A stretch of DNA of 39,777 bases from an uncultured bacterium (GTDB lineage Bacteria > Chloroflexota > Anaerolineae > J036 > Brachytrichaceae), in NCBI GenBank assembly GCA_903921365.1, contig CAIXPS010000270.1, forward strand, positions 1 through 39,777, written 5' to 3'. The notes below the pieces were generated by a model, which made no database searches, was not told the DNA's origin, and worked only from the letters and a program-made list of their open reading frames with translations. Shown here in pieces: positions 15,357-29,024 of the stretch; the stretch's first letter is position 1; every line of letters starts with the position of its first letter. A program made the translations under genes and the position numbers.

Positions 15357-16150
15357 TATTTACGCTCCATTCCAACGGCACGTTCGTTTGCCATCCTCTG
15401 CGCGATTTGTTCGGCAGCCTGCCGCAGCGCAGGGACATGATCATACACCGCAATGCCCAGCCGATCCGCTTCCTGCACTGCCATATCCGCCGGCAAAAGA
15501 CCCAGCACCGGCATGCCGGGTGATTCTGCCCGCAGGAAGGCGGCTTCCTCTTCGTTGCGCACTTTGTTGCCAACCAGCCACAGCCGTTTCAGGCCAATGT
15601 CTGCGGCCAGTTTCTTGATCTGCGCCGCCGTGCCCAGGCTGCGCCGGGTCGGCTCCACCACGACGATCATGGCGTCCACAAAGTCCACCGTGGCGCGACC
15701 CAGATGCTCCACACCGGCGTACATGTCCAGGATCAGCACGTCATCCTTGCGGAACATCAGGTGGGTCATCAGCGTCTTGAGCATGGCGCCTTCGGGGCAG
15801 ATGCAGCCTGATCCGCCGATTTCGACCGCGCCCATCTCCAGCAGGCGCACACCGCGATGCTTCACGCTAAAGCGGTCGGGCAGATCGTCCACGCGCGGAT
15901 TCAATGTGAAGAAGCCTCCGACAGTGCCGGGCTTTGCGCCGGTGCGCTCCTCGATCAAGTCAGACATCTCGACGATGGGGCGCAAGCGCGCGCGCAGATC
16001 AGCCGGAAAGCCCAATGCGCCCGCCAGGCATGGCGAGGGGTCGGCGTCCACGGCCAGCACATCGCGCCCGGCATCCGCATAAACCTGCGCCAGCAACGCC
16101 GTCAGCGTTGTTTTGCCCACGCCGCCCTTGCCGCTGATTGCTATTTTCAT
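15356..16150 (-). CDS. second CooC/AcsF-type maturation ATPase
   Basis: A 264-residue paralogue of the downstream gene. It shows the deviant Walker A GKGGVGKTT (residues 7-15), DADPSPCLAGALG, a GCICPEG motif with the CxC pair, VLILDMYAGVEHLGR and the switch-like VVVEPTRRS. In acetogens tandem CooC and AcsF proteins mature the CODH/ACS nickel sites. The ATG overlaps the acsE stop codon (ATGA), and its stop overlaps the next start, which indicates translational coupling. Confidence 0.9.
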   Translation of the reverse strand: MKIAISGKGGVGKTTLTALLAQVYADAGRDVLAVDADPSPCLAGALGFPADLRARLRPIVEMSDLIEERTGAKPGTVGGFFTLNPRVDDLPDRFSVKHRGVRLLEMGAVEIGGSGCICPEGAMLKTLMTHLMFRKDDVLILDMYAGVEHLGRATVDFVDAMIVVVEPTRRSLGTAAQIKKLAADIGLKRLWLVGNKVRNEEEAAFLRAESPGMPVLGLLPADMAVQEADRLGIAVYDHVPALRQAAEQIAQRMANERAVGMERK

Positions 16151-17073
16151 GTAAGTTGCAGATAGGCATCTGCATAAATGACTTTGTTGAGCAGAATCTG
16201 CACTGTCTTCCAGATCGCCATCTGGTCGGGGTCGCCGGCATCCACGTCGTCGAAGACGGGCGTTTCCGAAGCCGCGATGCGGTCGTTGATCTTGAGATAC
16301 AGGCGCCCCACGGGTGTGCTGGCGTCGCGTTGCTCAATGATGCGGATGGTGTCCATCAGCTTCAGATCGAGGGGATCGCCGATCAGCATATTCAGCCCCA
16401 CACCCATCAGCATGGCGCAATAGGTGCGGTTGATCAGCGAGCGATTCTCGTTTGGCACCGAGTTTGAGACGTTCGACAGCCCGACCGAGATGGCCGGCGA
16501 CGGGCTCCAGGCGACCTGCAGCGTTCGGATCGTCTCAATCAGCTCCGGGCAGTACTCCTGGCAACCCGATACGGTCAGCACCAGCGGGTCGATGATCAAG
16601 TCCGACATGGGGTAGTCGATTTCCAGCATGCGGGGGATTAGTTGCTCAATCGCAATAGTCACGCGCGCATCGGCCCCCACCGGGATACCGCTCGCGCCCA
16701 TGGTCAGCGCGATCACGCGCGCGTTGTACTTTTTCGCCAGCAGGGGCACTTTTTCCAGCCGCTCCGGCTCCGCCGATGTAGAGTTGATAATCGGCTGGGC
16801 TTTGGTGACTTTCTTCAGCCCGGCCTCAATCCCAAGCAGGTTGGTGCTGTCAAAACTGATCGGCACGTCCACAACGGCCTCGACTGTTTGCACCATCCAG
16901 GGGAAGACCTCTTCCCAGTCCTTTTTGCGCGGCCCCAGGTTGATGTCCAGCGCCTGTGCGCCGGCCTCCACCTGCGCGACAGCGCGCTCCTGGAAAAACC
17001 GCGCATCCTTTGCTTGCAGCGCGTCTTTGACTCGCTGCGACATGATGTGGATGTTTTCGCCAATGATGTACAT
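16147..17073 (-). CDS. acsE: 5-methyltetrahydrofolate:corrinoid iron-sulfur protein methyltransferase
   Basis: AcsE moves the methyl group from methyl-THF to Co(I) of the corrinoid Fe-S protein. The 308-residue protein has the pterin-binding TIM barrel: IIGENIHIMSQRV at the start, ALDINLGPRKKDW, PISFDSTNLLGIEAGL, PIINSTSAEPERL, and GLSNVSNSVPNENRSLINRTY, the block carrying the Asn residues that contact the pterin. It ends about 35 residues later than the second methyltransferase of this window. The start has a good ribosome binding site (AAAGGAAA). It lies between the corrinoid activator and the maturation ATPases. Confidence 0.95.
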   Translation of the reverse strand: MYIIGENIHIMSQRVKDALQAKDARFFQERAVAQVEAGAQALDINLGPRKKDWEEVFPWMVQTVEAVVDVPISFDSTNLLGIEAGLKKVTKAQPIINSTSAEPERLEKVPLLAKKYNARVIALTMGASGIPVGADARVTIAIEQLIPRMLEIDYPMSDLIIDPLVLTVSGCQEYCPELIETIRTLQVAWSPSPAISVGLSNVSNSVPNENRSLINRTYCAMLMGVGLNMLIGDPLDLKLMDTIRIIEQRDASTPVGRLYLKINDRIAASETPVFDDVDAGDPDQMAIWKTVQILLNKVIYADAYLQLT

Positions 17074-17119: not shown

Positions 17120-17145
17120 TATGAAGTATGACGTTATACTTCATA
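17120..17145 (-). repeat. intercistronic hairpin between acsV and acsE
   Basis: TATGAAGTAT (17120-17129) pairs perfectly with ATACTTCATA (17136-17145) around a six-base loop and overlaps the acsV stop codon. A third ATGAAGTATGA copy lies at 17108-17118, so this is a small AT-rich repeat cluster in a GC-rich operon. Confidence 0.7.
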
Positions 17146-19099
17146 CTTTCTTCAATGCCGCCTGCACCGTCGGGAACCTGGAGAGGTCGGTATGGGGCAG
17201 GAACAGCGCTGAAATGAATTCGTCATAAAAGCTGTTGTCGGCGGTCAACTCGATATAGGTCATACGGCTGGCAATGTCCGTGATGCGCGCTCGCGCAGCC
17301 CGATCCAACAGCGCCAGGTAAGCGCCTCGCGCGGCAGTGTTGCCGAGGAACTTAAAACGATCCCATGGCATATCCGGCAGTAGCCCGATCTCAACCGCCT
17401 TCTCGACATTGATGTATTTGCCGAAGGAGCCGCCAATCAGCACTTGCTCAGCCATCTCAAGCGGCATGCCTACCTTCTCAGCCAACACGGAGAATCCGGC
17501 ATAAATCGCGGCTTTGGCGCGCAGCAGGTTGTCGATGTCGACGCGTGTGATGACAATATCGCTGCCAGTCTGGCTTTCGGCCGCCCACACAATCACATAC
17601 TCATCGCCATGCTCGCCTTGCCTCACCCGCGTTGTGGGCAGCTTGAGATTGAAATGACCGCTGCGGTCGATAATGCCGGTCAGGAATAACTCTGCCAGCA
17701 ACGCGATCAGCCCGCTGCCGCACACGCCGCGCGCTCGCGCGCCTGGCGCGCTGCCGATGACGCGGTAGGTCGGCTCATAGGTGTCGCTGTTGATCCAGAT
17801 TTCCTCGATTGCGCCTTCGGTCGCGCGCATGCCATGCTGCACTCCTGCGCCCTCAAAGGCGGGCCCGGCGGAGCAGGCGCAGGTCACCAGCCACTCGCGG
17901 TTGCCCAGGACGATCTCGCCGTTTGTGCCCACGTCCATGAACAGCGTCACCGCCTCGGCATCGTCTAGTCCAGACGAGAGCACCCCGGCGCTGATGTCGG
18001 CGCCCACATAGCTGGCGACGCCGGGCAGACAGTCCACGCTCGCTTCGGGGTGGATGTTCAATCCCACCATGGCAGCCGGCAACACGGGCGTCTGGTTCAC
18101 GGTGGTCACAAAGGGCGTCAGGCGGATACTCTCGCACGGGATGCCCAGCAGCAAGTGAATCATGGTGCTGTTTCCGGCCACCGTCGCCTTGACCACACTC
18201 GCCGGGTCCGCCATGACGCGTTTGCAGGCTGTCACAAGCAGCGTGTTGATCGTCTTCAACACCAGGTCGCGCAGCTCCAGCGCGCCCTCTCCCCCTGGGA
18301 GAGGGTTGGGGAGAGGGCTCTTCTTAGTCGAATAGATGATGCGCGAGATGACATCCTCGCCGCGCGAAATCTGGCCGTTGTATTCAGCTACCTGTGCCCG
18401 CACGACGCCGGTCAACAGGTCCACCAGCCACAGCGACACCGTGGTAGTGCCGATGTCCACGGCAATTCCCCACAATGGCGCAGCGTCCGGGATGATGCCG
18501 GGCCAGAGATCGACGATTCGCGCCGCGCCGGTTGGGCGATCCCACGTGTCGGTTTCGATCAGCGCAGTCACCGCCCAGTTCTGGGCGCGCAATATGGGGC
18601 CGATGCGTCGCAGCAACGGCAGTGAAATCCCAAACGCGCCGATGCCAGTCTGCTGGCGCAATGCGGTTTGTAGCCGGCTCCAGTCGTCGGTTTGATCCTG
18701 CGTGTCCGGGGGCGACAGCGTCAGGGTAACGCGGCGCATCGGTTGTGCCGCAGCGGAATAGCCGAGGGGCACAGTTACCTCAATGGCGGTGCGATCGGTC
18801 GTCAGGCGGCGCTCGATCCCGGCCTGCGGCGGTATCGTGATCGACACATCCCCTTCAATAACGGACTGGCAGGCCAGCGCATAACCCGCCGCGACATCGT
18901 CTGGGCTCAGGCGCAAGGTGCTTCGTCGCCTCACATCGCCCGCTGTCACCTGGACGGCGCAACGCCCGCACCGGCCCTGTCCGCCGCACGGCTGCTGGAG
19001 ATCGATGCCAGCCAACTGTGCGGCCTCGGACACCAACGTGCCAGTGGCGACGTGCACTGGCACGGGCGCGCCTGCAAATGTAATTATGTGTTCAGCCAT
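17141..19099 (-). CDS. acsV: corrinoid protein reductive activator, RACo type (ASKHA ATPase with 2Fe-2S domain)
   Basis: RACo reactivates the corrinoid Fe-S protein when its cobalt has oxidised to Co(II), in an ATP-dependent reduction. The 652-residue protein begins with a plant-type ferredoxin domain; Cys38, Cys44, Cys47 and Cys77 (CGGQGRCGRC, YALAC) can hold the 2Fe-2S cluster. The ASKHA ATPase part follows with GIAVDIGTTTVSLWLVDL, MDVGTNGEIVLGN, ACSAGPAFEGAG, GSGLIALLAEL and GGSFGKYI. Around residues 256-271 the frame runs through a SPLPNPLPGGEGA insertion encoded by a palindromic repeat. The gene overlaps the start-side small gene by 16 bases. Confidence 0.93.
   Translation of the reverse strand: MAEHIITFAGAPVPVHVATGTLVSEAAQLAGIDLQQPCGGQGRCGRCAVQVTAGDVRRRSTLRLSPDDVAAGYALACQSVIEGDVSITIPPQAGIERRLTTDRTAIEVTVPLGYSAAAQPMRRVTLTLSPPDTQDQTDDWSRLQTALRQQTGIGAFGISLPLLRRIGPILRAQNWAVTALIETDTWDRPTGAARIVDLWPGIIPDAAPLWGIAVDIGTTTVSLWLVDLLTGVVRAQVAEYNGQISRGEDVISRIIYSTKKSPLPNPLPGGEGALELRDLVLKTINTLLVTACKRVMADPASVVKATVAGNSTMIHLLLGIPCESIRLTPFVTTVNQTPVLPAAMVGLNIHPEASVDCLPGVASYVGADISAGVLSSGLDDAEAVTLFMDVGTNGEIVLGNREWLVTCACSAGPAFEGAGVQHGMRATEGAIEEIWINSDTYEPTYRVIGSAPGARARGVCGSGLIALLAELFLTGIIDRSGHFNLKLPTTRVRQGEHGDEYVIVWAAESQTGSDIVITRVDIDNLLRAKAAIYAGFSVLAEKVGMPLEMAEQVLIGGSFGKYINVEKAVEIGLLPDMPWDRFKFLGNTAARGAYLALLDRAARARITDIASRMTYIELTADNSFYDEFISALFLPHTDLSRFPTVQAALKKV
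18285..18317. repeat. palindromic REP-like element inside acsV
   Basis: CCCTCTCCC (18285-18293) pairs with GGGAGAGGG (18297-18305), followed by TTGGGGAGAGGG. This is the widespread bacterial repeat that reads SPLPNPLP in one frame. Here it lies in frame in the activator gene, between IISRIIYSTKK and the conserved LELRDLVLKTIN helix. Confidence 0.8.
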
Positions 19100-19302: not shown

Positions 19303-20655
19303 TCAAAGTGCCTGCTTCATAAACGCCGGCAGATCCACGGCTTCACGCGGGCCGACGCGTATCTCCCAGGTCGGCAGTTCCTCTTCGAGTTCACCAGAGA
19401 GCACTGCCACATGACCTGGCACCACGAGCCGATGCTTCGTGACCTTGTTGGCGATACCGCTTTCCTTGACGGCCTTGGCAATGCGTTCGGCATCGAACTT
19501 GCCTGCCGCCCAGCCCGTGAGAACGCTCATGCCCTCGGCATCCACAATCAGCAGCCACGCCGGCAGACCCGCGCCCTCCACCTCGTTGGCGACGCTGAAG
19601 TACGTAATGCTGAAGTTGGTTGTGACCAGCACCGGGTCGGTGGGCTTGGGATTGTTGATCTCATACAGCCCCGGCAGCACCTGGATGGGCTTTTGTGGAT
19701 CGGTATAGATGTTCTCACGCAAAACCAGCAACGGGTAGATCATCTCCGGCGCAAAACGCTCCAGCACGATGAATCCCGCATACTTGGTGATGGCCTGGGC
19801 CGCCTGCACCGCTTCCTGTGTCGGATCGGTTGCGTCGCCGGGGAAGGCGATGATGGGATAACCGAGCGGCCGGAAATCCTTCTTGAGCGCCAGACGGCGA
19901 ATCTGGGTCTGCCGCGTCAATGCCGCGCCCAACTGCCGGCTGACCGGATCGAGCACCAGGTCATCAATGCCTTTGGCCTTGAGCTTGCCGGTCAGATCGG
20001 CCAGCCCATCCAGTGAATCCGCGCACGCGACCAGTGGCGCGTGATGCTGCTTCGCCAGGCCGGCCATCGCTTCCCAGTTACTGGCATCCGCGCCATGGAT
20101 CAATGGGCTTTCGCCATCGATCGCGCGCAACCCGGCAGTCATGACGGCTACATCGCGCGCGATCAGAATGAGCGGGCGCTTGCTGCTTGCGCGGACGGCG
20201 CTCACCACATTGGCGAACCGGGCGGGGTCAAATGGCGCGGTGGCCTGAACTGCGAAACCGTCCAGCGTCAGGTCGATGCCGACATAACGCACGGTGTATG
20301 CCTCCGCGGCGGCGACTTTGGCCTGGATGCTCGCAATCGGGTCATCATCACGCACGCGCAGGAACATGCCTGGTTTGTTAATAAAGCTCTTTTCGTGCCG
20401 AAACAACACGGTCTCGTTGCCCGACTTGACTTCGCGGGCGCCGGCTCCGCCGGTCTTGAGCGTAATCAGTCGGACCGGCGGCTCAGCAGCGTCGGCCAGT
20501 TGGGCTTTGGCGTCTGCTTTGACGTGTGGACAGGCGGCCAGTTCGATCTGTTTTGCGGCCAGCTTCATAGCAAAGGCCAGGCAGGTCGGCAGACCACAGT
20601 CTTTGCAGTTGGTCTTAGGGAGCAGTTTGTAGATTTGTATTCCGGAGAGTGGCAT
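19303..20655 (-). CDS. acsC: corrinoid iron-sulfur protein, large subunit
   Basis: AcsC carries the 4Fe-4S cluster and, with AcsD, the cobamide that takes a methyl group from AcsE to acetyl-CoA synthase. The 450-residue protein starts with the cluster-binding Fes domain: Cys17, Cys20, Cys25 and Cys42 in TNCKDCGLPTC and ELAAC. A TIM barrel follows (AYTVRYVGIDLTLDGFAV, PLILIARD, DDLVLDPVS), and the C-terminal part (PVLVTTNFSITYFSVANEVE, then LLIVDAEGMSVLTGWAAGKF) fits the cobalamin-binding domain of the family. A GAGGAT ribosome binding site precedes the ATG. It follows acsD by 12 bases. Confidence 0.96.
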   Translation of the reverse strand: MPLSGIQIYKLLPKTNCKDCGLPTCLAFAMKLAAKQIELAACPHVKADAKAQLADAAEPPVRLITLKTGGAGAREVKSGNETVLFRHEKSFINKPGMFLRVRDDDPIASIQAKVAAAEAYTVRYVGIDLTLDGFAVQATAPFDPARFANVVSAVRASSKRPLILIARDVAVMTAGLRAIDGESPLIHGADASNWEAMAGLAKQHHAPLVACADSLDGLADLTGKLKAKGIDDLVLDPVSRQLGAALTRQTQIRRLALKKDFRPLGYPIIAFPGDATDPTQEAVQAAQAITKYAGFIVLERFAPEMIYPLLVLRENIYTDPQKPIQVLPGLYEINNPKPTDPVLVTTNFSITYFSVANEVEGAGLPAWLLIVDAEGMSVLTGWAAGKFDAERIAKAVKESGIANKVTKHRLVVPGHVAVLSGELEEELPTWEIRVGPREAVDLPAFMKQAL

Positions 20656-20667
20656 ATTGGGTTATCC

Positions 20668-21633
20668 TCAAATCATCAGTTCGTCAATTGCCGCGCGCAC
20701 GCGCCGCAGACTTTCGGGATGGCGCAACACGACGATGTCCGCGCCCGACTCGATCAGCGCAACGGCTGTCAACGTCTCCCAGTTAATCGCCCGTTCCTTC
20801 CAATCTCCCCATGAGGCCGGCACATCATGACCTATCTTGGCTTCCTTAGCCTTCCACGCTTCCGCGCCCGGCGTGACGATCATGGGCGATTGAGTGTTGC
20901 CGTCACCCTGTAGTGCCGCGAGACGCAGGCGTTCCATCACGGAGTAGCCATACTCAATGCCATATCCCAGCGCGCCGGTGGTCGGATCCATCAGGATGCG
21001 ATCGGTCGGGATGCCCATATCGCGCACCAGAATGTTGAGCTGCTTGGCCAGGTTCACGTCCATGGGCGTGCGCGTGCTGATCAAATGATCATTTGCCATA
21101 GCCGTCGCGACGATCGTGCGGTAGTTCTTGTCCTCGCAGATGCCCAGCACAAGCCGTTCACCCCTGGTAGCCTCGGCCACCGGAACGAGCAGCGTGTTAT
21201 CCAACTCAGCCTGCCCCGGCGCGAACACCAGCAGGGGCAGCCCACTGGCCTTTAGAACGGACTGGACGGCGGCGACAGCGGTTTCCGGCGTGGTGGGGTT
21301 GCCATCGCTGCCCGTCTGGCTGAGCGACAGCACCAGCAATTCTGCGCCGGCCTGTTCTGCGGCTTTGGCCCAACTGGCGGGATCATTCGCTGCCTGGCCC
21401 CACAGTTCGAGCAGCAGCGGCGACCAATCCTCCGGGCGATGATCTTTGATCTCCAGCGCGACGACCGGACGATGACTCATCTTTTGCTCAAAGTGCATAA
21501 AGGGCAGACTTTTGTGTCCGCCGACGGTCACGGTGTGCGAACGCGTGCCGCCTTCTGCAGCCGTCGCGCCGAGAGTCACTGTGGTGACTGAACCGGACCA
21601 GGAATCTTTGGGTATTTCCACTTGGGGGGGCAT
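20668..21633 (-). CDS. acsD: corrinoid iron-sulfur protein, small subunit
   Basis: AcsD forms a heterodimer with AcsC and shares in cobamide binding. The 321-residue protein shows the family TIM barrel: an N-terminal strand region (VTLGATAAEGGTRSHTVTVGG), LPFMHFEQKMSHRPVVALEI, ILVRDMGIPTDRILMDPTTGALGYGIEYGYSVMERLRLAAL and SGADIVVLRHPESL. Length is usual for the family. GAGGAA lies upstream of the ATG. Confidence 0.95.
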   Translation of the reverse strand: MPPQVEIPKDSWSGSVTTVTLGATAAEGGTRSHTVTVGGHKSLPFMHFEQKMSHRPVVALEIKDHRPEDWSPLLLELWGQAANDPASWAKAAEQAGAELLVLSLSQTGSDGNPTTPETAVAAVQSVLKASGLPLLVFAPGQAELDNTLLVPVAEATRGERLVLGICEDKNYRTIVATAMANDHLISTRTPMDVNLAKQLNILVRDMGIPTDRILMDPTTGALGYGIEYGYSVMERLRLAALQGDGNTQSPMIVTPGAEAWKAKEAKIGHDVPASWGDWKERAINWETLTAVALIESGADIVVLRHPESLRRVRAAIDELMI

Positions 21634-21690: not shown

Positions 21691-22224
21691 CTAATCTGTG
21701 TTGTTTTTCTTCACACTCTGTCGCGCCGCATCACGTCTTTCAAAGAACGATTCGAGTGGGAGTTTGCGCGGAGCCGCAGAACCGAGGTCGAGCAACTCCG
21801 CGTCACTCGACGCGGCCAGGTGGCGCAACAGATGCCGGTAGGAAAGCGACGCGGCCGGGTAACGGATGCCGGCGGCTTCGTGCATCTGAAAGACCACGCG
21901 CACATGTTGGTCGCGCATGATCTGGGCAGCCAGAGGCAATGACAGATCCGGTGGAATCTGCGGCACCTTGGCGCACATGATGTCTTCAGCAGTAAGGGCG
22001 CGGCAGTTGTCACGAGAATACGCGCTCACCAGTTCGTCCTGGGTTACGACGCCGACGGCTTCACCTTCAATATCCAACACGACGATAGCTTCGAGTTGCT
22101 TCTCAAGCAACAGGCGCGCAACATCGACGATGGACGTAGTGGGCGGGCACGTAGCCACGCCCACCGCCATCAAGTCGCGCACCAGCAACCGTTCCCGTGC
22201 CCGTTGGACATTCGGTTCAGTCAT
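21691..22224 (-). CDS. CBS-domain protein
   Basis: The 177-residue protein has a Bateman module of two CBS motifs: VRDLMAVGVATCPPTTSIVDVARLL with VVLDIEGEAVGVVTQDEL, then AEDIMCAKVPQIPPDLSLPLAAQIM with VRVVFQM. A charged tail of about 50 residues follows. CBS pairs usually bind adenosine nucleotides or S-adenosylmethionine and act as energy or methyl-donor sensors. There is no attached enzyme or DNA-binding domain. It is cotranscribed between acsB and acsD, which suggests a regulatory role in the pathway; this is inference. Confidence 0.85.
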   Translation of the reverse strand: MTEPNVQRARERLLVRDLMAVGVATCPPTTSIVDVARLLLEKQLEAIVVLDIEGEAVGVVTQDELVSAYSRDNCRALTAEDIMCAKVPQIPPDLSLPLAAQIMRDQHVRVVFQMHEAAGIRYPAASLSYRHLLRHLAASSDAELLDLGSAAPRKLPLESFFERRDAARQSVKKNNTD

Positions 22225-22287: not shown

Positions 22288-23082
22288 TTAGAAGATTGGA
22301 TCCATAACCAGGGCCGGGTGGTTGTGCTCTTCCAGCCAGGCCAGCAACTGATCGACCGTGGTCACCGAGCGCTCATCAGCGATTTTGTCGATGAGATCGG
22401 GATCGCCTTCACGGATGGCGACGGCTTTCAGTTCGTCCGACATCGACTCTTTGAGCGCGCTGCTCATCCACACGACGCGCTTAAAACCGCCGTCGGAGGA
22501 GATGAACTTGGGGCTGATCAGATAGAACTTCCCCACACCCATCACGCCCGGCGTCTGCAGTCCACCGCCGGCCATGCCGGCCATGGTGCTGAAGGTCATG
22601 CCCGCCGGGGTCATGCTCGTGTCTTCACGGCTGACCACCATCACGCCGTTCGTCTCGGGGATCAGCATAACGATGCTCTCGAAGCAGCCGCACGCGGTCA
22701 TGGGGTTTTCCATGATCGAGTACATGGCCACATCCTGCACCGCGCCATGAGACCCGGACTTGGCGTATTCGTTAAGACCAGTCCAGTACCCCTTGGCCGG
22801 ATCAATGGGCGCGCCCAGCTTGATCGGCCGGTTGGGGCCAGTGGGGTTGATGCTGAAGGAAGCCTTGCAGTCCAGCCAGTTGTATGCGCCGCACAGACCC
22901 AATCGCTCCGGGCTGACGATGCAGACGTGGTTGGGCGCAAAGGACTGACACAACGTGCAGGAGTAAAACTCGTCCACCGCGCTATCGACCAGGTCGGCCA
23001 GGCGCTTGTTGCGGAAGTCGTAGGCCTCGCGCGCTTTGCCCAGCCATTCGTGAAGTTTGTCCGGATCGGTGTAGATGGTGAC
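22288..23082 (-). CDS. acsB: acetyl-CoA synthase, C-terminal A-cluster domain (downstream of an in-frame TAG)
   Basis: These 264 codons continue the acsB frame after the TAG at 23083-23085. They encode the whole A3 domain. The A-cluster ligands are in place: numbered from the acsB start with TAG as codon 503, Cys545, 548, 557 and 567 (CTLCQSFAPNHVC, GLCGAY) plus Cys634 and 636 (ACGCFE). The spacings equal those of the Moorella enzyme ligands (506, 509, 518, 528, 595, 597). No good start lies just after the TAG: the first plausible one is a GTG at 22977 without a ribosome binding site, and it would begin six residues before the first A-cluster Cys. Independent translation is therefore doubtful; readthrough, recent mutation or a sequence error are the options. 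Confidence 0.85.
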   Translation of the reverse strand, partial: VTIYTDPDKLHEWLGKAREAYDFRNKRLADLVDSAVDEFYSCTLCQSFAPNHVCIVSPERLGLCGAYNWLDCKASFSINPTGPNRPIKLGAPIDPAKGYWTGLNEYAKSGSHGAVQDVAMYSIMENPMTACGCFESIVMLIPETNGVMVVSREDTSMTPAGMTFSTMAGMAGGGLQTPGVMGVGKFYLISPKFISSDGGFKRVVWMSSALKESMSDELKAVAIREGDPDLIDKIADERSVTTVDQLLAWLEEHNHPALVMDPIF

Positions 23083-23085
23083 CTA
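23083..23085 (-). other. in-frame TAG codon inside acsB
   Basis: Read on the minus strand: GAC AAG GTG TAG GTC ACC ATC TAC, i.e. DKV-stop-VTIY, with the family sequence continuing in the same frame on both sides. From memory, acetogen AcsB has Gln at this place, so a single CAG-to-TAG change would explain it. TAG also ends rpoB, fhs, the glycosyltransferase and the secreted-protein gene here, which argues against genome-wide reassignment. Confidence 0.9.
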
Positions 23086-24591
23086 CACCTTGTCGACGAT
23101 GGCGCCGAAATCGGCGTGCAGTCGCGCGTGCAGGATCTTCCCGAAGTGCTCAAGGTTGAAGCCCTTGTCAGCCGCCGCGTTGGAGATGCGAACCCAGGCG
23201 ATGTCACGCTGACCGATATGCTGGATGCCCGATGCGCCGTTGATGAAATGATGCACCTGGCGCTCAAGCACGGGCTCGAAGTCCTTTTGCATGCCGCGCC
23301 CGGCCACTTTAATCACGATGCCCATATCCATGTGACCTTGCGGCGCGATTTTTTCGATGCCAGTGCCGACTACTTCGACCTTGCCGTCGGTCACGTCATC
23401 CAACTCAGCCATCTGCAGGTATTCAAAACAGCGCGAGTGCTTGCCGCCGAACTCGATGCGCATGTCGGCCTTACGCACGACTTCGCCTTCGAAAGCGGAA
23501 CCGTAAGCCACGGGCACAGGCACGTTTGCCAACTTCACTTTGATGCCGCGCACCTCGATGCACTTCTGCACCAGTCGCTCGGCTCGTTCCAGGTCATCCG
23601 CGCCTTCGATCTCGTTGAAAGGCATGCTGACGACGTGCTCATAGGTGGTGACGCCGGTGGGCAGGATTTCGGGAATGACCGTATCGGCAATCACGGGGAA
23701 GCCGAAATTGATCGCGCCTGCCGCCGCTGCATACTTCAAGTCATCCACTTCGCCCAGCGCCATAACAAACGCAAACACGCGCTCCTTGTTGTAGAGCAGG
23801 ATATCACGCGCCATGCCGCCCTTCTTTCCGCCGAAAGTCAGGGCGGAACGGGTGGCAAAGCCAAGCGCGTAGATTGCGCTGAGGGTATCGGTGCCAAACG
23901 GCACGATGAAGGTATCGTAGCCCATCTCGACCCCTTCCTCGGCCAACTGATCGATGATGCTCCGACCGTTAACGTTGCCTGACAGGAAGGTAAGGATGTT
24001 GCGGCGCTGCAGTTCGCGCACGATCTTCACCGCAACCTCGTTGGACTTGGCCGCGCCGACGATGGCCGCGAATCCGGGCATGCGCCCATCCACGAGTTGA
24101 ATGCCCCATGTGCGCAGCTGGATGTCGTCAATCGGGCCGTTCAGGTGCGCGCCATTCCCTTTGCCATTGCCGCTGCCTTCGGCATTTTCAGGGCTGGTGA
24201 AGGCAGCTGTTGTGCCGCCGGCCAGATGGAAGTTCCGCGCAGGCTCGGGCTGCTGCCCATAAGCGAAGCGAATCGCTTCGATGGACTCGGCAGCCAACAG
24301 GGTTGCCATTCCGCTGTCCAGGGTCTCGCCCAGGTACGGAGTCCAGTTTTTGATTGATGGGACCGGGTGCAGTAATCCGCGCGCGTGCTGCAGCACTGGC
24401 TCCAGTTGACCAATCGTTTCGACCTGCCGCCCGGTCATACCGAAGATCAGCGGCAGGTAGTAGGCTGTGTTGGGAAACGCGACCGGGGTGTCGGGACCTT
24501 TCTCAACCAAGGCCCGGTTGAGCATCGATTCCGCCTCGGAAACCAGCGCGTTTGCGCCGCGAATGGCGCGTGTTGCAATATAACGGGACAT
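23083..24591 (-). CDS. acsB: acetyl-CoA synthase, N-terminal part (domains A1-A2)
   Basis: Acetyl-CoA synthase joins CO from CO dehydrogenase, the methyl group from the corrinoid protein and coenzyme A. This 502-residue part covers the CODH-docking, CO-tunnel domain A1 and the ferredoxin/CoA-binding domain A2 (IFGMTGRQVETIGQL, FLSGNVNGRSIIDQL, GFPVIADTVIPEI, RCFEYLQMAELDDV, GHMDMGIVIKVAGRGMQ). It ends at a TAG just where domain A3 begins, and so lacks every A-cluster cysteine. A Gly/Asn-rich insertion (GSGNGKGNG) sits near residue 140. The ATG has an AAGGAG ribosome binding site. Full length through the TAG would be 766 residues plus the TAG position, close to the roughly 730 of acetogen AcsB. 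Confidence 0.93.
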   Translation of the reverse strand: MSRYIATRAIRGANALVSEAESMLNRALVEKGPDTPVAFPNTAYYLPLIFGMTGRQVETIGQLEPVLQHARGLLHPVPSIKNWTPYLGETLDSGMATLLAAESIEAIRFAYGQQPEPARNFHLAGGTTAAFTSPENAEGSGNGKGNGAHLNGPIDDIQLRTWGIQLVDGRMPGFAAIVGAAKSNEVAVKIVRELQRRNILTFLSGNVNGRSIIDQLAEEGVEMGYDTFIVPFGTDTLSAIYALGFATRSALTFGGKKGGMARDILLYNKERVFAFVMALGEVDDLKYAAAAGAINFGFPVIADTVIPEILPTGVTTYEHVVSMPFNEIEGADDLERAERLVQKCIEVRGIKVKLANVPVPVAYGSAFEGEVVRKADMRIEFGGKHSRCFEYLQMAELDDVTDGKVEVVGTGIEKIAPQGHMDMGIVIKVAGRGMQKDFEPVLERQVHHFINGASGIQHIGQRDIAWVRISNAAADKGFNLEHFGKILHARLHADFGAIVDKV

Positions 24592-24610: not shown

Positions 24611-26626
24611 TTATCTGGCCGGCACGCCGTACAGGGCCGCCTGGCGATCCGCGACAGACAACTTTTCAAATTCATTCATGCGATCGTCGCCGCTGCGTCC
24701 GAAGCGGGTCGGGCTGTACTTGACCAGACCCAGGGCAGCGCGCTTGGCATCGATGTGCTCCAGCGTCCGTCGCACCATTTCGTGCGGGTCTGTCACGAAC
24801 TCCATCTTGCCGCCATACAGCTTTTCCCAGCCTTCGCCAATGTAGCGCAGGACGACATCGCTGTCGGAAACGCGGTCAGGCATGCCGCCCACGGGCGATG
24901 CGCCGCCGAAGATCACATACGCGCCCGACGCCACACAATACGTCCCGATCGCGATGGCCTTCTCGCTCATCCATTCCGGCGCCAGGCCGACGGCAGGAAT
25001 CTGGTCAATGTCATCGCCCAGACCGCCCTCCGCCACCATTTGCGTCAGCACTGTCAGGATGCGGGTGTTATCCACGCACGAACCCATGTGCAAAACAGGC
25101 GGGATGCCGACGGTTTCGCACACTTCGCGCAGACCGGGGCCGACCTGATCCAGACCGGCCTGGCCGAGCAGCAAGCCCAACTTCGCGTTGGCGATTGCGC
25201 TGCACCCGGTCTCCACGACCAGCACGTCCTGCTTGAGCAGTTCGCGGGTGGTGACGGTATGCAGGTAGTCCTGCGTGCTGCGCGGGTTGTTGCACCCGAC
25301 GACGGCAGCCACGCCGCGAATGCGGCCGGAGATGATCGCGTCGTTGAGCGGGCGGAAGGATGCGCGGTACGTGCCGCCCAGCATATAACTGATGTACTCG
25401 TTTGAGAAACCTGGAATCAGGTGCTCGCGCACATCGGGAATGCGCGTCTCGCCGCGATTCTTGTAGTTGTCAATTGCCTTGCGCAGGATTTCCTTGGCAG
25501 TCGTGAGCGCATGGTGTTCGTCAAACTCGATGTGGGTTGCGCCCGTGATGCGCGCCTTGGGTGAGGTGGTGATCACCAGGGTGTGGAAGTTCTTAGCCAG
25601 GCCGACCAGCGCCTGCATGATGCACTGCACGTCCACAACCATCGCCTCGACCGAGCCGGTGAGGATCGCCAGTTCCTGGTGCAGGAAGTTACCCGCAGCC
25701 GGGATGCCCTGGCGCATCAGGATTTCATTCGCGGTGCAGCAGATGCCCGACAGGTTGACGCCATTGGCGCCGGCAGCTTTGGCATACGCGATGATCTCAG
25801 GGTCCTGTGACGCGGCGACGATCATCTCACTGAGTGTTGGCTCGTGGCCGTGCACCACCACGTTCACCATGTCCTTCTTCAGCACGCCCAGGTTGGCTTG
25901 CCCGAGGACGGGGGCCGGTGTGCCAAACAGGATGTCGGAGACATCGGTGGCGATCATGCTGCCGCCCCATCCATCGGCCATCGAGGTGCGGATGGCATGC
26001 TGCAGGATGTGCACTGGATCCTGATCGTCGCCGATGTGGGTGCGGTGCAGCGCCTCAACCACTTCGCGGTCGATGCCGCGCGGGATGACGCCCTTTTCCT
26101 GCCATAGCTTCTGGCGCTTCGCCGGCGCGCGCTTAATCGAGATGATCTGCCCGCGTTGCTGCCCGAATTGCGCGATGAAGAGATCGGCCAGATCATTGGC
26201 GACCTGATCGTTCGTGCGCCCCTCGACGGGGATATCATACAGTGCAGCCACCGTGCGCAGCTTGGCGACGTCGCGGATGATGTAGCCCTCGGACTCGTGG
26301 TTCGCCACGGCTTTGAGCGTAAATGCCATGTCGCGCCCATGATCGGAATGTGCCGCGGAACCCGCCGCAACCATGCGGAGGAAATTGCGCGCCTGGATGG
26401 TATCAATGGTCGCGCCGCAGACTCCCGTCTGGCCTTCCTTGGTCAGGCGGCACGGGCCCATCCCGCACATCTTGCAGCACATGCCAGTGCTGCCGATATT
26501 GCACGGGGCCATATCATCGGCACGGCTGAAGGCTGTGCCGATATGCAATTCGTCGGCGCGGATCAACATCGCCTGCCCGGCAGGATCCATACTGCGTTCT
26601 TGTGGACTACGATCTTTCTTCGCCAT
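24611..26626 (-). CDS. acsA: anaerobic carbon-monoxide dehydrogenase, catalytic subunit
   Basis: Nickel-iron CO dehydrogenase (AcsA/CooS), which interconverts CO and CO2 and, with AcsB, feeds CO to acetyl-CoA synthesis. The 671-residue protein has the N-terminal B/D-cluster cysteines (Cys42, Cys50, Cys51, Cys54, Cys59 in PCNIGSTGMCCKMCGMGPC) and the C-cluster region: AHSDHGRD with the catalytic His, GVAAVVGCNN, VETGCSAIA, LHMGSCVDN and GTYCVASGAYVIFGG. Length is usual. The ribosome binding site is AAGGAAGG. It overlaps the HMA-domain gene by 20 bases, and acsB follows after 19 bases, so the CODH and ACS genes are coupled. Confidence 0.97.
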   Translation of the reverse strand: MAKKDRSPQERSMDPAGQAMLIRADELHIGTAFSRADDMAPCNIGSTGMCCKMCGMGPCRLTKEGQTGVCGATIDTIQARNFLRMVAAGSAAHSDHGRDMAFTLKAVANHESEGYIIRDVAKLRTVAALYDIPVEGRTNDQVANDLADLFIAQFGQQRGQIISIKRAPAKRQKLWQEKGVIPRGIDREVVEALHRTHIGDDQDPVHILQHAIRTSMADGWGGSMIATDVSDILFGTPAPVLGQANLGVLKKDMVNVVVHGHEPTLSEMIVAASQDPEIIAYAKAAGANGVNLSGICCTANEILMRQGIPAAGNFLHQELAILTGSVEAMVVDVQCIMQALVGLAKNFHTLVITTSPKARITGATHIEFDEHHALTTAKEILRKAIDNYKNRGETRIPDVREHLIPGFSNEYISYMLGGTYRASFRPLNDAIISGRIRGVAAVVGCNNPRSTQDYLHTVTTRELLKQDVLVVETGCSAIANAKLGLLLGQAGLDQVGPGLREVCETVGIPPVLHMGSCVDNTRILTVLTQMVAEGGLGDDIDQIPAVGLAPEWMSEKAIAIGTYCVASGAYVIFGGASPVGGMPDRVSDSDVVLRYIGEGWEKLYGGKMEFVTDPHEMVRRTLEHIDAKRAALGLVKYSPTRFGRSGDDRMNEFEKLSVADRQAALYGVPAR

Positions 26627-27260: not shown

Positions 27261-29024
27261 CTAGAACAACCCAACCACTTTCCCATCCACCAGATCCACG
27301 CTCTCGTAGGCCGGATGGCTGCCCAGACCCGGCATGGTGCGCATGTCTCCGCATAGCGGATACAGGAAACCGGCGCCGATGGAGGCGCGCACATCGCGCA
27401 CGGGCAGTGCGAAACCAGTCGGCGCACCCAGCAGTTTGGCATCGTGGGACAGGCTGAGGTGAGTCTTCGCCATACAGATCGGCAGATTGCTCCATCCCAG
27501 TTTCGTGAACAGCTTGATCTTCGCCTCGGCTTCGGGCTGATATTCCACGTGATCGGCGCCATACAGACCAGTCGCGATCGCTTCGATCTTTTCCTTGATG
27601 GAGGCCGTATCGGGATACAGCATCTTGAAGGCCTTGGGCAATTCGCAGGCCGCTGCGACCGCGTCGGCCAGTTCAGCGCCGCCCTCACCGCCCAATGCCC
27701 ACACCCTGGATGAGTATGCGCCTTGTGCGCCGGCGGCGATGGCTTTCTCTCGGATCAACGCTGTCTCAGCGGGGGTGTCGGCATCGAAGTGGTTGATCGC
27801 CACGACGACCGGCACGCCGAACTTGCGCGCGTTCTGAACCTGTTTGATCAGATTCGCGCAACCCTTCTCCAGCGCGGGCAAGTTCTCACGCGTCAGTTCT
27901 GGCGGCAACGGCTTGCCAGCGACGACGCTGCCTGCGCCGCCGTGCATCTTCAGCGCGCGGACGGTGCACACCAGCACCACGCAGTCGGGGCTTAGTCCGC
28001 TGGCGCGGCACTTGATGTCCATGAACTTTTCCATGCCCAGGTCGGCGCCGAATCCGCTCTCGGTCACGACGTAGTCCGCCAGCTTCAGCGCGATCTGGTC
28101 GGCCACAATCGAGTTGTTGCCGTGCGCGATGTTGGCAAACGGCCCGGCATGCACGAACACGGGCGACTGCTCCAGCGTCTGCAGGAGGTTTGGCATGATC
28201 GCATCTTTGAGCAGCACCGTCATGGCGCCGGCGACCTTCAGTTGCTCGGCCGTGATTGGTGTGCCGTCTTTTGCAAACGCGACGACCATGCGCCCCAGCC
28301 GCGCGCGCAGGTCTTCGATGCCATTTGACAGCGCCAGGATCGCCATGACCTCGGAGGCCACGGTGATGTCATAGCCAGAGGTTCGCGCTACGCCGTCTTC
28401 CCGGGTTCCCAGCCCGATGGCGATCTTGCGCAGTGTGCGATCGTTGATGTCGACCACGCGGTTGAGCATGATCGAATACGGATCGATGCCCAGCGGGTTG
28501 CCGTGATACAGGCAATTGTCAACTGCCGCCGCCAGCAGGTTGTGCGCCGCGCCGATGGCGTGAATGTCGCCGGTGAGATGCAGGTTGAAGTCCTCCATTG
28601 GAATCACCTGAGCATAACCACCGCCCGCCGCCCCACCCTTGATGCCGAATGTCGGCCCCATGCTGGGCTGGCGCAGACAAGTGAACACCTTGCGTCCGGT
28701 GTAGTGCAGCGCTTGTGACAGGCCGATGGTCGTCACGGTCTTGCCCTCGCCGAGCGGCGTCGGGGTGATCGCTGTCACGACGATATATCTGCCGTTGGGA
28801 CGGCTGGCCAGACGGTCGCGCACGTTCAGGTGCACTTTGGCCTTGTGCTTCCCGAAGACCTCGAGGTCGTCCTCGGTCAAGCCGACGCGTCGCGCAACTT
28901 CGACGATCGGAAGAATGGGCGCGGCCTGCGCAATAACAAGATCTTTGGGGACGGGGGTTAGCTTGACTGGGCCATTGTACTGACTACCGGGAATTGAATG
29001 CTCACTGGTTTTCTGGTCTGACAT
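27261..29024 (-). CDS. fhs: formate-tetrahydrofolate ligase
   Basis: Fhs makes 10-formyl-THF from formate, THF and ATP, the first folate step of the methyl branch. The 587-residue protein is a little longer than the usual 555-560. It shows the ATP loop TPTPLGEGKTVTTIGL near residue 90, RQPSMGPTFGIKGGAAGGGYAQVIPMEDFNLHLTGD, GPFANIAHGNNSIVAD, ESGFGADLGMEKFMDIKCR and PVVVAINHFDADT. An AAAGGA ribosome binding site precedes the ATG. It is the last gene of the methyl-branch operon and ends in TAG. Confidence 0.97.
   Translation of the reverse strand: MSDQKTSEHSIPGSQYNGPVKLTPVPKDLVIAQAAPILPIVEVARRVGLTEDDLEVFGKHKAKVHLNVRDRLASRPNGRYIVVTAITPTPLGEGKTVTTIGLSQALHYTGRKVFTCLRQPSMGPTFGIKGGAAGGGYAQVIPMEDFNLHLTGDIHAIGAAHNLLAAAVDNCLYHGNPLGIDPYSIMLNRVVDINDRTLRKIAIGLGTREDGVARTSGYDITVASEVMAILALSNGIEDLRARLGRMVVAFAKDGTPITAEQLKVAGAMTVLLKDAIMPNLLQTLEQSPVFVHAGPFANIAHGNNSIVADQIALKLADYVVTESGFGADLGMEKFMDIKCRASGLSPDCVVLVCTVRALKMHGGAGSVVAGKPLPPELTRENLPALEKGCANLIKQVQNARKFGVPVVVAINHFDADTPAETALIREKAIAAGAQGAYSSRVWALGGEGGAELADAVAAACELPKAFKMLYPDTASIKEKIEAIATGLYGADHVEYQPEAEAKIKLFTKLGWSNLPICMAKTHLSLSHDAKLLGAPTGFALPVRDVRASIGAGFLYPLCGDMRTMPGLGSHPAYESVDLVDGKVVGLF

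Follow-up and report, generated by a model that had tools for sequence, protein, structure and literature searches.

The acsB gene of an uncultured Anaerolineae bacterium, which encodes the acetyl-CoA synthase subunit of CO dehydrogenase/acetyl-CoA synthase (CODH/ACS), was found to be interrupted by a single in-frame TAG that very probably stems from one C-to-T change at an ordinary CAG glutamine codon of an otherwise intact gene, with no dedicated decoding system. The gene lies in a 39,777 nucleotide stretch of DNA, here called the window (Table 1). Translation of the acsB frame again gave one internal stop, the TAG at codon 503 (...GAC AAG GTG TAG GTC ACC...) that had been reported in a first-pass annotation of this DNA, and the frame itself ends in TAA. 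The change from CAG to TAG would require one transition. As to its origin, we infer that a wrong or minority-strain base in the assembled consensus is somewhat likelier than otherwise, and that a nonsense mutation in the sampled population, too young for the downstream sequence to have decayed, is a lesser though realistic prospect. If the base is real, translation would end after residue 502, leaving A1 and most of A2 with no A-cluster and hence no acetyl-CoA synthesis.

When read through the TAG, the frame scored 951 bits against NF040764, the bacterial AcsB equivalog (cut-off 800), and the three expected domains were found in order, with the Pfam matches CdhC (359-512) and ACS_CODH_B_C (524-767) in the same frame. 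AcsB from Moorella and Carboxydothermus matched both sides of the TAG, and 1mjg_M gave one unbroken alignment over residues 152-766, confirming the earlier observation that AcsB continues in a single frame; a frameshift at codon 503 was accordingly rejected. The A-cluster residues C545, C548, C557, C567, C634 and C636 align with Moorella 506, 509, 518, 528, 595 and 597, a constant offset of 39, so that all six cysteines do follow the TAG with the Moorella spacing. Compared with bacterial AcsB (NF040764; the Moorella and Carboxydothermus ACS, PDB 1mjg and 1ru3), the gene is alike in its full length, its domain order, the spacing of the six cysteines and its context of acsA, acsC, acsD, acsE and RACo, and differs by the one in-frame TAG. 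Chance coding 3' of the TAG was rejected, because two congeners carry intact genes that share 94% and 90% identity with this one, and a second intact acsB was rejected because the source genome contains one copy only.

The TAG had been placed exactly before the A-cluster domain, but it was found inside the Pfam CdhC match. The predicted structure of AcsB could be aligned with solved ACS structures along its whole length, though only its A2/A3 region was used here because confidence in A1 was low. In this model codon 503 falls midway along the last beta-strand predicted for the A2 domain (501-507; residues 501-510 have a pLDDT of about 93), which is followed by a helix (510-533) and then by the A3 part from about residue 535-541, 30-40 residues behind the TAG. 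As modelled, the stop would remove the last A2 strand and the helix rather than part two domains.

The acs operon is complete, including genes for CODH, the CBS-domain protein, AcsD, AcsC, RACo, the methyltransferase and FTHFS, and acsB is the only one interrupted, which agrees with the initial impression that nothing else in the operon has decayed. Over the stretch compared, the contig of a congener carries the same genes one for one. A stop that seemed to interrupt acsD in congener G003 was rejected, as it is the end of the upstream frame and lies outside acsD. The CBS-domain gene between acsB and acsD occupies the same place in two congeners (L120 and L121; 79% and 73% identity), which suggests that its product is a regulatory part of the operon.

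Table 1 Features of the acs region in the window, and inteins and fusions of AcsB in relatives.
Feature	Position	Strand	Remarks
acsB frame, CODH/ACS acetyl-CoA synthase subunit	22288..24591	-	767 codons, one internal TAG
In-frame TAG, codon 503	23083..23085	-	Gln in 96 of 117 homologues of the class; nearest relative has CAG
acsB 5' part, A1 and most of A2 domain	23086..24591	-	502 aa if the stop terminates
acsB 3' part, A2 end and A3, all six A-cluster cysteines	22288..23082	-	No plausible start codon
acsA/cooS-type CO dehydrogenase (Prismane)	24611..26626	-	Intact
CBS-domain protein	21691..22224	-	Intact, kept in two congeners
acsD (CdhD family)	20668..21633	-	Intact
acsC (CdhD and FeS)	19303..20655	-	Intact
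RACo, corrinoid protein reductive activator	17141..19099	-	Intact
Pterin-binding methyltransferase (acsE-like)	16147..17073	-	Intact
Formate-tetrahydrofolate ligase (FTHFS)	27261..29024	-	Intact in window
AcsB intein, site a	L130:6985-8604	+	Site a in genomes G246, G126, G309
AcsB intein, site a	L131:8154-9773	-
AcsB intein, site a	L132:7527-9143	-
AcsB intein, site b	L125:6893-8479	+	Site b in genomes G040, G044, G347, G195, G121, G089, G170, G230, G246, G126
AcsB intein, site b	L131:6306-7895	-
AcsB inteins, site b, further loci			L123, L124, L126, L127, L128, L129, L130, L133
AcsB/AcsD-like fusions			L134, L135, L136, L137, L139, also L124, L130, L132; frames about 1220-2380 aa

AcsB was found in 157 of the 396 genomes surveyed in the class, and among the matches listed from that survey no other AcsB had an internal stop. 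In the column of codon 503, the 117 distinct homologues have Q (96), E (11), K (4), S (2), A (2) or P (1), and the window gene alone has a stop; the glutamine codons are CAG in 81 cases and CAA in 15, and the Moorella residue at this position is also Gln. The relative nearest to the window gene (94% amino acid identity) has CAG and the next one (90%) CAA. The TAG, which was looked for in related genomes as the first-pass annotation had proposed, is therefore not kept, and the CAG of relatives supports its suggestion of a recent mutation or assembly error from CAG to TAG. The nearest named relatives are LJ_bin-0733 and FK_Sedi_A_Bin.40, the named relatives being MAGs of Anaerolineae (Chloroflexota). 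Within the sampled family (G000-G027), AcsB was found in the source genome and in congeners G001 and G003, and was not found in congeners G002 and G004 or in any of the 23 further members sampled; this patchy presence of the pathway points to loss or lateral gain.

With respect to the nearest relative, dN/dS was 0.043 before the stop and 0.027 after it, and downstream of it the window lineage has 26 synonymous and 2 nonsynonymous changes of its own. Judged from these substitutions, the parts upstream and downstream of the TAG are under the same purifying selection, and with selection unchanged downstream, the stop either arose very recently or is not a real one. Read-through, too, would leave the downstream part under purifying selection. 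No true same-frame interruption other than that of acsB was found in 399 kb of the source genome, a result that fits either infrequent consensus errors or one mutation of recent date; other pairs of a stop and a following open frame in these 399 kb were rejected as adjacent genes of the usual kind, almost all of which have a start no more than 12 codons away. The source assembly consists of 603 contigs and 6.9 Mb, compared with 3.3-5.2 Mb in congeners, a size that would fit some strain mixing. The acsB case resembles isolated nonsense codons in metagenome-assembled genes in being a single-base transition, in the lack of decay and in its occurrence in one assembly only, and no feature was seen that distinguishes it from them.

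In order to establish whether the TAG is decoded, the source genome was searched for PylS and a tRNA with anticodon CUA, as had been suggested. The PylS profile (TIGR02367) found no match in the source genome, and in the same search one control genome only, that of the pyrrolysine user Methanosarcina acetivorans, scored above the cut-off. No CUA anticodon occurred among the 43 tRNAs found with a tRNA model or the 41 anticodon types reported by ARAGORN in this genome, which is about 97% complete, and a pattern search for a CUA-tRNA returned nothing beyond known tRNAs for Gly, Arg and Asp and matches by chance. Because of this completeness a missing suppressor tRNA is unlikely, and its absence from the assembly is a small residual possibility. 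RF1 is complete (355 aa, 508 bits). Stop usage was counted on 399 kb of the source genome, where the terminators of 143 coding-like ORFs were TAG in 42 cases, TAA in 54 and TGA in 47; TAG is therefore an ordinary terminator. Neither mark of a genome-wide reassignment of TAG, its rarity as a terminator or the loss or alteration of RF1, is present. Since there is no PylS match, no CUA tRNA, a complete RF1 and ordinary termination at TAG, a dedicated recoding system in this genome is very unlikely, contrary to the earlier proposal of suppression, pyrrolysine or other recoding, although natural read-through at a weak level may still occur. The intact codon in close relatives, together with the lack of a detected suppressor tRNA, is what the first-pass annotation had named as evidence against recoding.

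The best surviving alternative is a genuine TAG with enough read-through to be useful, in which, for instance, a near-cognate tRNA-Gln (CUG) would restore glutamine and give full AcsB. It would account for the strong purifying selection on the downstream frame and for the intact remainder of the operon; tRNA-Gln(ctg) and tRNA-Gln(ttg) are both encoded, and with Q, E, K, S, A and P all accepted in the codon 503 column, the majority of possible insertions would be functional. However, TAG is common as a terminator in a genome with RF1 and no suppressor tRNA found, the TAG is kept in no relative among the matches listed, and a stable RNA structure just 3' of the stop, which might have promoted read-through, was rejected at a fold z-score of -0.08, so that this explanation seems improbable. 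Still more doubtful is a form of it in which this lineage of Anaerolineae has fixed the TAG and ACS output would be tuned by reading UAG through in a manner not yet described, with a near-cognate tRNA-Gln or an unassembled suppressor tRNA. Read-through of either kind would mean a recoded stop in the central Wood-Ljungdahl enzyme, outside the known recoding systems.

A second proposal, that AcsB is made as two subunits, A1-A2 and A3, by termination and re-initiation, is very improbable. Archaeal CdhC lacks the A1 domain, so the domain make-up of these proteins does vary, and an AAGG-like sequence precedes ATC at codon 506. Nevertheless, the first standard start (ATG, GTG or TTG) behind the TAG is GTG 539, which has no Shine-Dalgarno-like sequence, bearing out the initial remark that neither a ribosome binding site nor an ATG follows the stop. 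With no usable start behind it and with the TAG predicted to lie inside the last A2 strand and not in the A2/A3 linker, two subunits are unlikely, and no AcsB split at this place was seen among the matches listed from the class survey.

Insertion of pyrrolysine can be practically dismissed: TAG is the pyrrolysine codon, and acsB shares with the methylamine methyltransferases in which some bacteria use pyrrolysine (PMC8318568) an in-frame TAG in a gene of C1 metabolism with conserved sequence behind it, but here PylS and a CUA tRNA were not found, TAG is a common terminator, and codon 503 is neither catalytic nor a metal ligand, is Gln in relatives and is not kept as TAG in them.

As the evidence indicates either an error of one base or a mutation of recent date at the CAG codon, caution is what matters for this genome, in which the presence or absence of acetyl-CoA synthase should not be scored from automatic annotation alone.

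In-frame inserts in AcsB of several relatives were identified by profile (Intein_splicing PF14890, TIGR01445) as inteins. They occupy two sites, which form separate tree branches: site a, in three genomes, separates L547 from C548 (numbered as in the AcsB of the window), and site b, in ten Anaerolineae genomes, lies between A633 and C634, immediately ahead of the CGC motif of the A-cluster. In G246 and G126 (L130 and L131) both inteins are present in one acsB gene. The residue after each intein is a metal-ligand cysteine of the A-cluster, as would be expected if, going by sequence position, this cysteine serves as the +1 splicing nucleophile. Those long AcsB inteins that were scanned also matched LAGLIDADG_3; three site-b inteins are short (219-222 aa; L126, L128 and L129), and the two of these that were scanned (L126 and L128) had no LAGLIDADG match. 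A limited literature search found no published description of inteins in acetyl-CoA synthase, and their position at the metal-binding cysteines of AcsB merits more attention than the TAG. In some relatives AcsB and an AcsD-like (CdhD family) domain are joined in one open frame by a long Pro/Ala-rich linker, whereas in the window acsB and acsD are separate genes.
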